DNA of 64,000 nt from Nodosilinea sp. FACHB-141. Its GTDB lineage: Bacteria > Cyanobacteriota > Cyanobacteriia > Phormidesmidales > Phormidesmidaceae. Shown one piece after another: positions 35,921 through 44,560 of the stretch. Below the pieces are notes generated by a model, which had not been told where the DNA came from, ran no database searches, and worked only from the letters and a program-made list of their open reading frames with translations. Every line of letters begins with the position of its first letter. The stretch's first letter is position 1. A program made the translations under genes and the position numbers. Location: NCBI RefSeq assembly GCF_014696135.1, contig NZ_JACJPP010000007.1, positions 558,001-622,000 of the forward strand, given 5' to 3'.

Positions 35921-36370
35921 ATGACCGCTGATTCTTTGCAGGCTATCCGTAATTACCTGGCCCTTTCGCCCACCCTAGGCACCGCCGGGCAGCCCACCGC
36001 CGAGCAGTTTAAGGCGGTAGCCGAGGCCGGTTATACAGTCGTGGTCAATCTGGCGCTATCCACCTCCGACAACGCCATTGCCAACGAAGCAGAAGTGCTG
36101 AAAAGCCTGGGCATGACCTACTTTCACATTCCGGTGGTGTGGGAAGCGCCAACCCCAACCGATCTGGCCATCTTCTTTAAAGTGATGGATCGCAACCGCG
36201 ACGTTAAGGTTTTGGTTCACTGCGCTCTCAACATGCGCGTCTCCGCCTTTGTCTATCTCTACCGCGTGCTCCGTCTGGATATTGATCCCGCTGTGGCGAT
36301 CGCCGACCTACACCGCATCTGGCACCCTAACCCCACCTGGCAAACCTTCATCGACCAGTCCCTAGCCTAA
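35921..36370 (+). CDS. Protein tyrosine phosphatase family protein (DUF442-like)
   Basis: The 149-residue single-domain protein has the P-loop VLVHCALNMRVSAF. The catalytic Cys and Arg are separated by four residues rather than the canonical five, as in the group often called phosphatase-domain or beta-lactamase-hydrolase-like proteins. The N-terminal LGTAGQPTAEQFKAVAEAGY is a family hallmark. The general-acid Asp is not obvious. Substrate is unknown. The 3' end runs directly into an 85-base G-free tract. Confidence 0.85.
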   Translation: MTADSLQAIRNYLALSPTLGTAGQPTAEQFKAVAEAGYTVVVNLALSTSDNAIANEAEVLKSLGMTYFHIPVVWEAPTPTDLAIFFKVMDRNRDVKVLVHCALNMRVSAFVYLYRVLRLDIDPAVAIADLHRIWHPNPTWQTFIDQSLA

Positions 36371-36450
36371 CCCCATCACCCCCCCAACCCATCACTCCCT
36401 ACCCATCCACCCCTCACCCCTTACCCCCCACCCCCTCCCTCCCCTAAAAT
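36366..36450. repeat. 85-base G-free pyrimidine-rich tract
   Basis: From just inside the phosphatase stop to the base before TGTCTCTATGG, no G occurs on the plus strand. The minus strand has many runs of three or more G with short spacers, so G-quadruplex formation is possible. It replaces the usual ribosome-binding site of the next gene. Confidence 0.8.
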
Positions 36451-36456
36451 GTCTCT

Positions 36457-37167
36457 ATGGCAAACGAGACCCACTACCAAACCCTTGAGGTTCAAGAGTC
36501 GGCGACCCAGGCAGAGATTAAGCGCGCCTATCGTCGTCTGGCTAAGGAGTATCATCCTGATAGCAAGAGCGATCGCGCGTCCCACGATCGCATTGCTCGC
36601 ATCAACATTGCCTACGAAGTCATTGGCGACCCCTCGCGGCGTACGGTTTATGACCAGCAGCGTCAGGGGTTTGTAGCCGCTGACCCAGTGGAGAGTGCTA
36701 CCAATCGGACGAAGCGCACGGCGGATATGCAGGCGGTGTATCGCTACGCTCGCGAGGCAACACAGTCGTCTGAGGCGCGCGAAGATGCCTGGCTAAAGCT
36801 GGTTTACGGCCCAGTGGACAGGTTGTTGGGCAAAATCATGTCGCCCCTAAAAACAGAGATTCGCAAGCTGTCGGCTGACCCCTTCGACGATGAGCTGATG
36901 GAGGGGTTTATGGCGTATTTAGAGCAGGGCCGCACCTGGCTGGAGCAGGCCCAGAGCAAGTTTAACTCGATGGCAAATCCGGCAAGTATGGCGGGGGTGG
37001 CGGCGGATATTTACCACTGTCTGGGGCTGCTGGAGGATGGGCTGGATGAACTCGATCGCTTCACGATGAGCTATGAGGAGAGCTACATTCACACCGGAAC
37101 GGAGCTATTTCGGCGGGTGAAGCAACTGCGGGCTGATGCGAAGGAGCGGTTGAAGCGGTTGGTGTAA
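36457..37167 (+). CDS. J-domain co-chaperone protein
   Basis: The 236-residue protein has an N-terminal J domain (about 6-68) with the HPD tripeptide in LAKEYHPDSKSD and the helix RRTVYDQQRQ. It would stimulate the ATPase of a DnaK. The remainder is a helical cyanobacterial-specific domain without the Gly/Phe region or zinc fingers of DnaJ, so it is a class III J protein. The ATG at 36457 follows a G-free leader, with no ribosome-binding site visible. True dnaJ is at 60044-61171. Confidence 0.88.
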   Translation: MANETHYQTLEVQESATQAEIKRAYRRLAKEYHPDSKSDRASHDRIARINIAYEVIGDPSRRTVYDQQRQGFVAADPVESATNRTKRTADMQAVYRYAREATQSSEAREDAWLKLVYGPVDRLLGKIMSPLKTEIRKLSADPFDDELMEGFMAYLEQGRTWLEQAQSKFNSMANPASMAGVAADIYHCLGLLEDGLDELDRFTMSYEESYIHTGTELFRRVKQLRADAKERLKRLV

Positions 37168-37233
37168 GGTGTCTCGTAGGGTGCATCCGCGCAGCGATGC
37201 ACCGTTTAAGGGATTCGTAGCAACGGAACTGGT

Positions 37234-38187
37234 ATGAATCAAGGATGGGTTTACACCGATCGCATCACCCCCGCCGAAGCTGGTCTCTCCGTCCTCGACT
37301 TCTATAGCAATCGCTACAGGTACTTTAGTCGGGTGATATGGCGCGATCGCATCGCAGCTGGCCAAATTCGCCAAAACGGTATTGCCATGGCCTCCGACGA
37401 TCGCCTCAGTGCGGGGGACAGGCTGGACTACCATCGGCCTCCGTGGGAGGAGCCGGAGGCACCGCTGGAGTTTGGGGTGCTGTATGAGGATGAGGATTTG
37501 ATGGCGATCGCTAAGCCATCAGGTCTGCCGGTGCTGCCTGGCGGGGGCTTCCTCACCCATACGCTGCTGCACCAGCTCAGGCTGCGCTATTCCGACAACC
37601 CGCCCATTCCGGTACATCGGCTGGGGCGGGGAACGTCGGGGGTAATGCTACTGGGGCGATCGCCTCTAGCTCGTGCTGTGCTCAGTCGCCAGCTGCGCGA
37701 CTCGACCGCAACGGCCCACGATCCCCAAGCTCCACACCCCATTCGCAAGACCTATCGAGCTCTAATTGGGTTCACCAACTTACCCGACAAGTTCATCCTC
37801 ACAACCTCTATCGGCAAAGTCGATCACCCAGCGCTGGGGTATGTGTACGCAGCCTCGCCCGCCGGTCTACCCTCCTACAGCGAGGGCCTGGTTATCCAGC
37901 GCAATGTAGATTCCACCCTGGTAGAAGTCACTATTCGCACTGGGAGACCCCACCAGATTCGCATTCACCTAGCGGCGGCAGGGTTTCCGCTCATCGGGGA
38001 TCCCCTCTACGGGGTCGGCGGCCTACCGCTACCGATTAAACCGTCTGAGACTGGCAGAGTCCCCGTCCCCGGCGACGTTGGCTACCATCTGCACGCCTAC
38101 CATCTAACCCTCCCCCATCCCCGCACCCAAGAACCTTTAGAAATTCTCTGCCCTGCCCCCACCATCTTGCAGAGTTCCAGCCGCTAA
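37234..38187 (+). CDS. RluA-family pseudouridine synthase with catalytic Asp replaced
   Basis: The 317-residue protein has an RluA-type catalytic fold: YEDEDLMAIAKPSGLPVLPG, the motif-II region VHRLGRGTSGVML, and TGRPHQIRIHLAAAGFPLIG followed by DPLYG. In almost all pseudouridine synthases motif II is HRLDXXTSG with an essential Asp. Here the codon is GGG (Gly). The rest of the fold looks intact, so this may be an inactive or RNA-binding homologue. I recall the HRLGRGTSG form from some plant and cyanobacterial members, so it may define a clade. The N-terminal 90 residues look like an S4-type RNA-binding extension. Confidence 0.88.
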   Translation: MNQGWVYTDRITPAEAGLSVLDFYSNRYRYFSRVIWRDRIAAGQIRQNGIAMASDDRLSAGDRLDYHRPPWEEPEAPLEFGVLYEDEDLMAIAKPSGLPVLPGGGFLTHTLLHQLRLRYSDNPPIPVHRLGRGTSGVMLLGRSPLARAVLSRQLRDSTATAHDPQAPHPIRKTYRALIGFTNLPDKFILTTSIGKVDHPALGYVYAASPAGLPSYSEGLVIQRNVDSTLVEVTIRTGRPHQIRIHLAAAGFPLIGDPLYGVGGLPLPIKPSETGRVPVPGDVGYHLHAYHLTLPHPRTQEPLEILCPAPTILQSSSR

Positions 38188-38216
38188 GCTCATTCACGTC
38201 GGCGAACTCCAACCCC

Positions 38217-38639
38217 CTACTCCCTGCTCCTTACCTCACAAGGCCGCACCATCAACAGCTGCTCCGCCTGACCAAAGCCATGTTTCTCGTAAAAGGGCTG
38301 CATCTCGGGGGTGCAAAACAGTTGAATGCACTCCACCTGGGCAATTCGGGGGTGGGTGGTGACATGCTCGATCAGCTTAGCTCCCAAGCCCTGCCCACGA
38401 TAGTCTGCCGCCACGATTACATCGAATACGATCGCCCGATACACCCAGTCCGTCAGGACTCGACAAAAGCCTGCCAACCGCTGCGCCTCCTCGTCCCATA
38501 GGCCAAAGAGTAGGTCGCTGTTGGCCAGCAGGGGCGACACATCGGCCAAGGCTCGTTTGTTGCTCCACCACTCCTGCAAATACATCTGGTGAAGCTGCTC
38601 AACCTGAGCGGAGGTGAGCTGGTGAATGACAGTAAACAT
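38217..38639 (-). CDS. GNAT-family N-acetyltransferase
   Basis: The 140-residue protein is a single GNAT domain. The acetyl-CoA loop is YRGQGLGAKLIEHV, following the strand AIVFDVIVAAD. The C-terminal part CIQLFCTPEMQPFYEKHGF carries the family's usual Tyr. The substrate is unknown. It is convergent with the RluA-like gene (38187). Confidence 0.9.
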   Translation of the reverse strand: MFTVIHQLTSAQVEQLHQMYLQEWWSNKRALADVSPLLANSDLLFGLWDEEAQRLAGFCRVLTDWVYRAIVFDVIVAADYRGQGLGAKLIEHVTTHPRIAQVECIQLFCTPEMQPFYEKHGFGQAEQLLMVRPCEVRSRE

Positions 38640-38900
38640 GGGTAAATTGCGATCTTTACAGTACGGATATCCTGCCCCAGCAGCTTAGAGAAAGGGCTAC
38701 GATCGAGGGGTAGCACAGGCGCAAGACCTATCTTACTGCCGATGGCAAGGGCCAAGGCCACCGATACAGTTTGGGTATAGCTGCAACACAATTCCCCTCT
38801 CTGCTTAAAGCAGACTGCACGCGAGATTTGAGGGGCAATAGCAAGCTACTCCCATCAGCTAGGGCCAACAATGTAGCGCTGGCACTGACCACCATATATC

Positions 38901-38913
38901 GGAGGATGCCTCC
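38901..38913 (+). promoter_or_regulatory. Ribosome-binding site inside a mini-hairpin
   Basis: GGAGG (38901-38905) is the obvious ribosome-binding site for ATG 38914. Directly before that ATG lies CCTCC (38909-38913), so GGAGG-ATG-CCTCC can pair and hide the site. An ATG at 38906 opens a three-codon frame (ATG CCT CCA TGA) that ends in an ATGA overlap with the true start. Confidence 0.55.
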
Positions 38914-39345
38914 ATGAAATTTACTCTACTCGCTGGGACCGCAGTCGCTATTTCGTTAGCAATGGGTCTACCCGCTCAGGCCGAAAACCCAGCCCACGTA
39001 CAGCAGCTACTTGAAACCAACCTTTGCCAGAGCTGCGATCTGTCGGGGGCCAATCTAACCCAGGCTCACCTAATTGGCGCTGACCTGCGCGATGCCAACT
39101 TGGAAGGCGCAACTCTCTTAGAATCCAACCTAGAAGGGGCTGACTTAAGCGGTGCCGACTTGACTGGTGCTAACCTCACCCGAGCTTTTTTGACCAACGC
39201 CCTGCTCGAAAACGCCATCTTTGACCAAGCTAATTTAACCGAAGCATCTCTCTACTTTGCTGAGGTGACTGGAGCGTCATTTCTCAATGCCAATTTGACC
39301 GGAGCCGACATTGTAGGCACCCCAATTAGCGTTGGCGGCGACTAG
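38914..39345 (+). CDS. Exported pentapeptide-repeat protein
   Basis: The 143-residue protein has a signal peptide (MKFTLLAGTAVAISLAMGLP, cleavage after AQA). About nineteen A(D/N)LXX pentapeptides follow, such as SGANLTQAHLIGADL and LEGADLSGADLTGANL. They form a right-handed quadrilateral beta helix. A CQSC pair (LCQSCDLSG) precedes the repeats. Such proteins are numerous in cyanobacterial lumen or periplasm, and function is unknown. Translation may be controlled by the hairpin overlapping its ribosome-binding site. A 34 bp palindrome follows the gene. Confidence 0.92.
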   Translation: MKFTLLAGTAVAISLAMGLPAQAENPAHVQQLLETNLCQSCDLSGANLTQAHLIGADLRDANLEGATLLESNLEGADLSGADLTGANLTRAFLTNALLENAIFDQANLTEASLYFAEVTGASFLNANLTGADIVGTPISVGGD

Positions 39346-39388
39346 CATCCTGTCAATAAGTCCGGTTGGTAGACGCAGTCGGATATCG

Positions 39389-39422
39389 ATTTTGGCCAGC
39401 AGAAATTTCTGCTGGCCAAAAT
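39389..39422. terminator. Bidirectional terminator, 34 bp perfect palindrome
   Basis: The arms, ATTTTGGCCAGCAGAAA and its exact complement, meet without a spacer. A/T residues lie on both ends. It lies between the convergent pentapeptide gene and the minus-strand gene at 39460, so it can end both transcripts. Confidence 0.65.
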
Positions 39423-39459
39423 ACTTTAAAGTAACGCTCTTCTCCATAGGATTAGAAGT

Positions 39460-39915
39460 TTAGGTTGCTGTTTGAGGCCACACAACATGTCTCATTCGAT
39501 GCACCAAGGTAGTGGAAGCTGAGAATAGCGAAAATCCAATCAAGGGATGCAAAACAGCGAGGGGAATTGACACTGAAAGCGGCATTTGAATATGAATAGT
39601 TAGAAATTGCAGTCCTATAAGAACGGGCAAACCTGTGGTAAGGGAATTAATGCGCTGCGGTACAGGTAAGTACCAGGCTCCGCCTAGCAACAGCAAGGAC
39701 AGTCCGCCATAACCTCGCACCAGCCAAACATGGAGATTCCACCAGGTAGGATTATAGAAGTAAGCCAGTCCTACCGTTAAAACTTGAGCGGTCAAACAGA
39801 GATTAAAGAAGACTGCAGCCGCGTAATAGATCAGCATTACGGGTTGAGTTGAAGGCTGATGTTCAGCAGTTTGATCTGATAGCTCAGCGGAAAGTTTCAT
39901 CGTTGATGGTTCCAT
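39460..39915 (-). CDS. Small membrane protein, DUF6220-like
   Basis: The 151-residue protein has four hydrophobic segments (about 27-50, 60-78, 86-103, 115-135) and a polar N-terminus. The pattern AQVLTVGLAYF, NLHVWLVRGYGG and LAVLHPLIGF recalls the DUF6220 family of unknown function, though I hold this loosely. Two starts are possible, ATG 39915 and ATG 39900; GGAA precedes the second. It faces the pentapeptide gene across a shared terminator. Confidence 0.6.
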   Translation of the reverse strand: MEPSTMKLSAELSDQTAEHQPSTQPVMLIYYAAAVFFNLCLTAQVLTVGLAYFYNPTWWNLHVWLVRGYGGLSLLLLGGAWYLPVPQRINSLTTGLPVLIGLQFLTIHIQMPLSVSIPLAVLHPLIGFSLFSASTTLVHRMRHVVWPQTAT

Positions 39916-43627: not shown

Positions 43628-43792
43628 GAGGCGTTTTGTCGCCCCTGACCACCAGCCCACTGGCCGAGTTAAGCAGCGCTACTTAGGGATCTTAGTAAGA
43701 ACTTATACTCAGATGCCCTGGATTGCTGTCATAATTGTTAAGCAGGTTGACTAAACCTTGCCGGGGTTACCCTATCTATGCGTTACCACGTC

Positions 43793-44560
43793 ATGGCAGA
43801 ACGGTTACAAAAAATCCTCTCTCAGTATGGGGTTGCCTCCCGACGGCAAGCCGAGCAGATGATTGAGGCCGGGCAGGTGCAGGTCAACGGAGCCGTGGCC
43901 TACTTGGGCCAGCGGGCTGACCCTAGCTGCGATCGCATAGAAGTCAATCAACAACCCCTTCAGGCTCATCATCGGCCTACTCAGCACTATCTGCTCCTGC
44001 ACAAGCCCCTCGGCATGGTGTCTACCTGTGCCGATCCCCAGGATCGCCCTACCGTGCTCAATGCTCTACCCCCTGAGCTACAAACCGTCGGCATTCACCC
44101 CGTAGGGCGACTGGATGCCTACACAACCGGAGCGCTGTTGCTTACCAACGATGGTGACTTCACCTTTCGGCTCACCCATCCCCGCCACGACGTCTCTAAA
44201 ACCTATCGGGTGCGCCTTGAGGGCCAGCTGTCTCCCTCAGCCCTCGATGCTTGGCGACAGGGTATCTGGCTCGATCGCCAGCTTACTCGCCCTGCCCAAG
44301 TTCGAGTGATCGCCACTAACCCCAACCATACCCAACTTGAGGTTATTCTTCAGGAAGGGCGCAACCGGCAAATCCGCCGGGTTGCCATGGCCCTAGGCCA
44401 TCGGGTGATAGACTTACACCGAACCGCATTAGGTTCAGTTGCGCTGGGCAATCTAGGTGTGGGGGCTTACAGGGCTTTATCATCTGCCGAAATTGAGGCA
44501 TTATTAGCTGAGTCATCGGTTCAATCAACTCCTCAGAAAACTACCTCCGTTATTAGTTAG
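43793..44560 (+). CDS. RsuA/RluB-family pseudouridine synthase
   Basis: This enzyme modifies ribosomal RNA. It has an N-terminal S4 domain at about 1-60 (LQKILSQYGVASRRQAEQMI) and the catalytic domain with motif GRLDAYTTGALL, where the Asp is present. Further signatures are YLLLHKPLGMVST and ILQEGRNRQIRRVAMALGH, typical of RsuA/RluB/RluE/RluF. The subgroup, and so whether 16S or 23S RNA is the target, is uncertain. ATG 43793 (MAERLQK) is preferred over ATG 43778. The RodZ-like gene begins 31 bases after its stop. Confidence 0.92.
   Translation: MAERLQKILSQYGVASRRQAEQMIEAGQVQVNGAVAYLGQRADPSCDRIEVNQQPLQAHHRPTQHYLLLHKPLGMVSTCADPQDRPTVLNALPPELQTVGIHPVGRLDAYTTGALLLTNDGDFTFRLTHPRHDVSKTYRVRLEGQLSPSALDAWRQGIWLDRQLTRPAQVRVIATNPNHTQLEVILQEGRNRQIRRVAMALGHRVIDLHRTALGSVALGNLGVGAYRALSSAEIEALLAESSVQSTPQKTTSVIS

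Follow-up and report, generated by a model that had tools for sequence, protein, structure and literature searches.

The window, which is the whole stretch of DNA analysed here, comprises 64,000 nucleotides of Nodosilinea sp. FACHB-141, and contains at 37234–38187 an open reading frame for a protein of the RluA family of pseudouridine synthases. A sequence-only reading had reported that this protein carries Gly, encoded by GGG, where the catalytic Asp would be expected; the open reading frame, the motif and the codon at 37624–37626 all bear this out. The features of the gene are as follows:

37234–38187, + strand: Gly-type RluA-family protein of 317 aa, with an ATG start and no internal stop
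37234–37458, + strand: putative N-terminal S4-like RNA-binding domain, residues ~1–75 (Foldseek match and RluD alignment)
37450–37452, + strand: codon of Glu73, the sole invariant subfamily-specific acid found (Glu in 156/156)
37615–37641, + strand: motif HRLGRGTSG, residues 128–136, including the base-flipping Arg129 (156-row count)
37624–37626, + strand: GGG codon of Gly131, at the catalytic Asp position (read from the sequence; Gly in 156/156 relatives)
37747–37755, + strand: Lys172-Thr173-Tyr174, the conserved active-site Tyr motif (pairwise and multiple alignments)
37939–37968, + strand: motif TGRPHQIRIH, residues 236–245, with Arg238 (conserved in the subfamily)
38065–38097, + strand: subfamily-specific segment VPGDVGYHLHA, residues 278–288 (conserved in the subfamily)

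The 317-aa protein matches the Pfam domain PF00849 (PseudoU_synth_2) with an E-value of 8.5e-20 and 72 bits, above the cut-off, and matches NCBIfam TIGR00005 (RluA subfamily) with an E-value of 8.3e-56, but at 189.4 bits it falls 3.3 bits short of the curated cut-off of 192.7. The window protein is a member of the RluA family by Pfam domain and fold. It falls outside the RluD orthologues, with 75.8 bits against a cut-off of 351 for the NCBIfam RluD equivalog, and with RluD placed across a 100/100 branch from it in the tree. The catalytic Asp is described as conserved in all pseudouridine synthases; in active enzymes it pairs with the motif III Arg, the position of Arg238. The Asp of the HRLD..TSG motif that marks an active synthase is replaced by Gly131 in the window protein, while the base-flipping Arg, the active-site Tyr and the motif III Arg are present as Arg129, Tyr174 and Arg238. 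An Rfam scan of 36000–39500 gave nothing reaching the gathering threshold.

The structure alignment drew on 66 of the best 80 (of 532) loci, less L050, L054 and L106, whose slices contained a stop codon. The AlphaFold2 model (64 sequences) has a mean pLDDT of 93.1 and a pTM of 0.87. Its best fold matches are RluA, RluC and RluD with Z of 22–23, and the comparison with E. coli RluA (2i82_A) gives a Z of 22.8 and an rmsd of 2.2 over 203 residues. The fold matches further include RluD in a pre-50S particle (7bl5) and the trypanosome and Leishmania mitoribosome assembly-intermediate chains 6yxx_EC and 7am2_BZ, and all 31 Foldseek matches at E ≤ 0.001 are pseudouridine synthase chains or complexes containing one. 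The N-terminal region taken alone has no Pfam match; Foldseek aligns it with the S4 fold of Hsp15 (5z81_A) over 48 columns, with an rmsd of 1.7, a probability of 1.00 and an E-value of 0.18, and full-length RluD aligns with the model over residues 3–317, with the N-terminal domain placed as in RluD. RluD, RluC and RluA of E. coli share the fold of the window protein (Z ~22) and the same motifs, but they have the Asp and lie across a branch from the Gly-types.

The sequence-only reading had proposed aligning the protein with close homologues to see whether Gly is conserved in a clade. We compared 306 loci with the window protein, 287 of which gave a match spanning residues 125–140; dropping motif-pattern loci and identical segments left 225 rows, picked by similarity alone. 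Gly stands at position 131 in 156/156 distinct rows scoring at least 135 bits, and Asp in all 69 RluA-family rows below. The gap between Gly and Asp rows runs from 132 to 140 bits, with partial or divergent copies as the lowest-scoring Gly rows; since the set includes near-copies, the rows are not independent events. Each of the 38 relatives searched gives an RluA-family match of some kind, and the loci read have Gly in the orthologous group and Asp among the paralogues. Orthologues of other genomes, read at 95% to 51% identity, have HRLGR[GS]TSG, which excludes a sequencing slip. Furthermore, the Gly131 codons of 139 distinct frames are GGG in 59, GGA in 35, GGT in 32 and GGC in 13, indicating that it is the residue, not the codon, that is conserved. 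Gly is also retained in the motif variants HRLGTGTSG (L108, L141, L143), HRLGRGASG (L142) and QRLGRGTSG (L225). The loss of the catalytic Asp is real and subfamily-wide, beyond a local mutation.

Among the high-scoring rows, Arg129 is found in 156/156 and His128 in 155/156 (Gln in L225). Tyr174 is found in 153 of the 155 rows aligned pairwise (Trp in L160 and L163) and in 147/147 rows of the multiple alignment, which was built from motif-picked rows, the residue 131 counts being taken from the similarity-picked rows instead. Arg238 is present in 154 of 155 aligned rows, with one Lys, Tyr284 in 155/155, and residue 281 (Asp in the window protein) is acidic in 152/155. The same multiple alignment has Lys172, Gly237, His240, Gln241, Arg243, His245, Pro279, Gly283 and Leu286 in 147/147 rows, and Pro239 in 143/147, where Asp-types mostly have Thr. 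The subfamily-specific invariants include Trp36, Arg68, Trp71, Glu73 and Tyr284, and at positions 172, 239, 279 and 284 the subfamily has, (nearly) throughout, Lys, Pro, Pro and Tyr, which are not the residues usual in Asp-types. Specifically, Glu73 is found in 156/156 Gly rows and in 19 of the 69 lower-scoring rows, and precedes the first strand of the catalytic domain in the predicted structure. The position two residues after 131 is Gly, Phe, Trp, His or Ser; in Asp-type proteins it is mostly Asp. We looked for a nearby replacement acid and rejected it: none has been gained beside Gly131, and Asp281 is not invariant. The active site is otherwise intact and the Asp alone is gone, in keeping with the description of the rest of the protein as well preserved in the sequence-only reading. 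That reading had left a choice between a non-catalytic function and an alternative residue; the retained pocket fits both, and the non-catalytic option is favoured because no acidic residue has been gained next to the motif. According to an excerpt of PMC3919597, the Arg of RluB and RluA that corresponds to Arg129 flips the target base or stabilises it, the Tyr is in contact with that base, and the motif III Arg has been implicated, along with other residues, in binding the substrate.

We built trees without the motif column, from rows picked with the motif in view; the trees are unrooted, the bootstrap was unsettled in both runs, and some Asp rows have long branches. In the 60-row tree, a single branch, supported at 100/100, separates the 29 Gly rows from the rest. 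In the 69-row tree, which includes other phyla and from which ten rows of the 60-row tree (with long branches or nearly duplicated) were dropped, the branch that separates the 40 Gly rows has support of 98/96. Because the trees are unrooted, the view that Gly replaced Asp, and not the reverse, depends on the generality of Asp within the RluA family. The Gly side of the 60-row tree has undergone 16.9 changes per column, and zero at the column of residue 131. The Gly-type gene is under purifying selection, with a dN/dS of 0.13–0.21 in 11 within-genus pairs against the window gene (row G007, with misplaced coordinates, left out), about twice as high as the 0.06–0.10 of the Asp-type RluD-like paralogue (12 pairs); these values are rough, some dS exceeding 1. 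Of the Asp-type rows in the 69-row tree, L260 comes closest to the Gly subfamily (94/82), on a long branch. L260:1489–3390 (−) and L275:1480–3336 (−) encode Asp-bearing RluA-family proteins of 633 and 618 aa, fused, as judged by eye, to an apparent TrhO-type rhodanese (tRNA U34 hydroxylase).

A profile built from 15 orthologues, with E ≤ 1e-50 counted as a subfamily match, detects the subfamily in 197 of 388 Cyanobacteriia genomes (83 of 159 genera) and in 165 of the 333 that are nearly complete. At this threshold 191/388 genomes of the class, and 3/25 of the genus of the window, have no match, indicating that the Gly-type gene is dispensable. When the phylum was sampled more widely, the matches listed formed two score groups, at least 182 bits and at most 155 bits. 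The DNA pattern HRLGR.TSG occurs in 197 of the same 388 genomes, against 7 for a reversed-pattern control, and is present in 192 of the 197 profile-positive genomes (lists compared by eye). Of the five profile-positive, pattern-negative genomes, four were read: G111 and G127 have HRLGTGTSG (L143 and L141), G115 has HRLGRGASG (L142) and G454 has QRLGRGTSG (L225); the fifth is G525. Five genomes have the pattern only: on reading, G364 and G396 are chance frames and the letters of G273 are not HRL; the others are G388 and G456. The genome of the window gene also encodes Asp-type RluD-like and RluA-like paralogues. The RluA-like one, L001 on contig C21, is a 587-aa open frame, much longer than RluA, and groups with E. 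coli RluA in the 60-row tree (100/99, long branches).

A scan of 84,980 species, from which the best 80 of 532 loci were used, placed two non-cyanobacterial labels among those 80: L095 ('Candidatus Latescibacterota') and L103 ('uncultured bacterium'). The genes adjoining both loci, judged by eye, are not cyanobacterial in look. In the phylum of the genome of L095, 24/64 genomes match at E ≤ 1e-60, with Gly in 20/20 loci read; 24 genomes with divergent copies make contamination unlikely. In the phylum of the genome of L103, 59/240 genomes match at E ≤ 1e-45, and of 20 loci read the four strongest (324–421 bits) have Gly and the next 16 (at most 185 bits) have Asp. The Gly subfamily spans Cyanobacteria, the phylum of the L095 genome and a third bacterial phylum. 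Spread by viruses and mobile elements was looked for and rejected: none of 54 pattern matches in viral_contigs is a relative, and the phage and plasmid matches are all below 60% identical (26–31% among the matches listed). Five plasmid copies read (L188–L192) all have Asp.

The f2 proteins (L144–L154, L156–L164) are Gly-type, mostly with HRLGRFTSG. In the 69-row tree seven f2 rows group with L294 of the L095 phylum (100/98), apart from other cyanobacterial rows; in the 60-row tree, which has no rows of that phylum, the f2 rows grouped with a Spirulina copy (99/97). Judging from the tree, the grouping with L294 may reflect a possible transfer between phyla.

Gly in place of the catalytic Asp has been described in eukaryotic proteins. 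An excerpt of PMC8910892 (2022) describes plant XXHRLG-type RluA proteins (AtRLUA7, which is AT3G52260, and ZmRLUA7) from algae to seed plants, proposes that they are catalytically defective, states that they are absent from other organisms, and gives predicted localisations of AtRLUA7 in chloroplast, cytoplasm and nucleus. As there described, the plant type resembles the window protein, which has the HRLG motif, in that an RluA protein intact elsewhere carries Gly where the catalytic Asp would be; it differs in being eukaryotic, and is set beside the bacterial subfamily by description. Common descent of the plant and bacterial proteins is plausible, and the bacterial members extend or correct the claim of absence elsewhere as it stands in that excerpt. 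Human RPUSD3, compared by description from an excerpt of PMC12716993, is likewise an RluA-family protein with Asp changed to Gly; being a close homologue of the active RPUSD4 in vertebrates, it probably lost the Asp independently. By fold, the protein can also be likened to mt-LAF3 of Trypanosoma brucei (6yxx_EC), an RluA-family fold in a large-subunit assembly intermediate, which unlike the bacterial Gly-type is mitochondrial and kinetoplastid. In the literature searched, with subscription journals mostly outside it, we found no report of the bacterial Gly-type; the plant counterpart is already published, and the multi-phylum bacterial subfamily is without a report found. The sequence-only reading missed the subfamily-wide extent, the spread across phyla and the published plant counterpart. 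The Pfam domain labels such a protein a pseudouridine synthase, and the Gly, constant in all members read, suggests that this usual functional label is wrong for the subfamily. The bacterial subfamily offers tractable models for a catalysis-independent role of the RluA fold, a role also at issue for plant AtRLUA7 and human RPUSD3; one cyanobacterial laboratory strain with an orthologue is Picosynechococcus sp. PCC 7117 (L104).

Our leading interpretation, which we hold at about even probability, is that the Gly-type protein is an RluA-family pseudoenzyme that binds rRNA or tRNA and flips a base, makes no pseudouridine, and serves as an assembly or stability factor. In such a mechanism, structured RNA (an rRNA precursor or a tRNA) would be bound by the catalytic cleft, which is intact, together with the S4-like domain, Arg129 would flip a uridine into a pocket with an obligatory Gly for the catalytic Asp, no pseudouridine would form in that Gly-type pocket, and the protein would aid assembly or stability by holding or remodelling the RNA, as reported for mt-LAF3. 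RNA binding, a lack of synthase activity and an assembly role are what we infer for the Gly-type protein: with the Asp missing it should not make pseudouridine, and Gly in 156/156 rows with the rest of the pocket retained favours a pseudoenzyme. The use of all four Gly codons, the low dN/dS, the lack of change at residue 131 on the Gly side of the 60-row tree, and the fold matches to RluA-family chains in pre-50S and mitoribosome assembly intermediates also speak for it. Excerpts of two papers point the same way, reporting no noticeable activity of human RPUSD3 on rRNA or tRNA (PMC12716993) and no requirement for the catalytic function of mt-LAF3 (PMC11469412). A catalysis-free role is nevertheless not automatic, since E. 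coli RluC D144A, which added no pseudouridine, gave no help to ribosome assembly and made growth worse (excerpt of PMC11194073). A complex that includes RPUSD3 and TRUB2 converts some uridines of human mitochondrial mRNAs (excerpt of PMC11469412), so that a protein with Gly for Asp may still contribute to synthesis. Moreover, a plain RNA-binding scaffold should need neither an invariant pocket nor an invariant Gly, which counts against the pseudoenzyme, as do the dispensability of the gene and the lack of a conserved ribosome-linked neighbour. RluC D144A, the RPUSD3 complex and the invariant pocket together leave sizeable shares to other chemistry, to a reader and to a partner. We consider it possible, with clearly less confidence than the pseudoenzyme, that an ancient multi-phylum subfamily, reaching plants by plastid descent, swapped Asp for Gly and repurposed the pocket for a different base chemistry or for recognition of a modified uridine.

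It is unlikely that the protein is still an enzyme in which Glu73, the near-invariant Asp281 or an ordered water replaces the Asp and supports pseudouridine formation or another base change. The retained active-site residues, the subfamily-typical Lys172, Pro239, Pro279 and Tyr284, and the 156/156 conservation of Glu73 would suit such an enzyme, but residue 281 is acidic in 152/155 rows and so not invariant, Glu73 comes ahead of the first catalytic-domain strand, and an invariant Gly provides no chemical group. An invariant Gly would be expected if space were needed, and the base-flipping Arg and Tyr are retained, as for a reader or protector whose Gly-made cavity takes an already modified base, for example a C5-modified uridine or pseudouridine; we rate this somewhat lower than a surviving enzyme, as the 53 loci compared yielded no linked partner gene. 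Slightly less probable again is a partner role, in which the protein, itself inactive, pairs with an active RluA-family enzyme or targets it. The Asp-type RluD-like and RluA-like paralogues of the same genome could be its counterparts, and excerpts suggest partner roles for the plant XXHRLG proteins, as an alternative (PMC8910892), and for mt-LAF3 with an RPUSD4-like paralogue, and count RPUSD3 in a complex making pseudouridine in mitochondrial mRNAs (PMC11469412). Many genomes of the class, however, have lower-scoring RluA-family matches alone, with Asp where read, and no Gly-type. To our knowledge, RluA-family enzymes of bacteria act without partners, which we also count against this reading.

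Decay of the gene or a sequencing error is a negligible prospect. The absence of a match in many relatives, a dN/dS about twice that of the Asp-type paralogue and an in-frame stop in a few copies (L025, G537, G479, L054) might be read as decay, but the frame in the window is open, dN/dS stays at 0.13–0.21, and Gly is invariant while encoded by four codons. Conservation in many genomes rules out a sequencing error or pseudogene.

A conserved operon partner was sought within flanks of at most 5 kb in 53 loci, made up of the window together with 52 taken from the best 80 (of 532); the widest neighbour families occur in 8/53, so the neighbours provide no functional link, to ribosomes or otherwise. 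The gene at 36457–37167 (+), 66 bases upstream of the Gly-type gene, encodes a DnaJ-domain protein and recurs in 6/53 loci, all of a close group. By Pfam, 35921–36370 (+) encodes a small protein of the DSP-PTPase (PTP-NADK-like) phosphatase superfamily. Downstream, 43778–44560 (+) encodes an RsuA-type pseudouridine synthase with an S4 domain and the usual GRLD motif.
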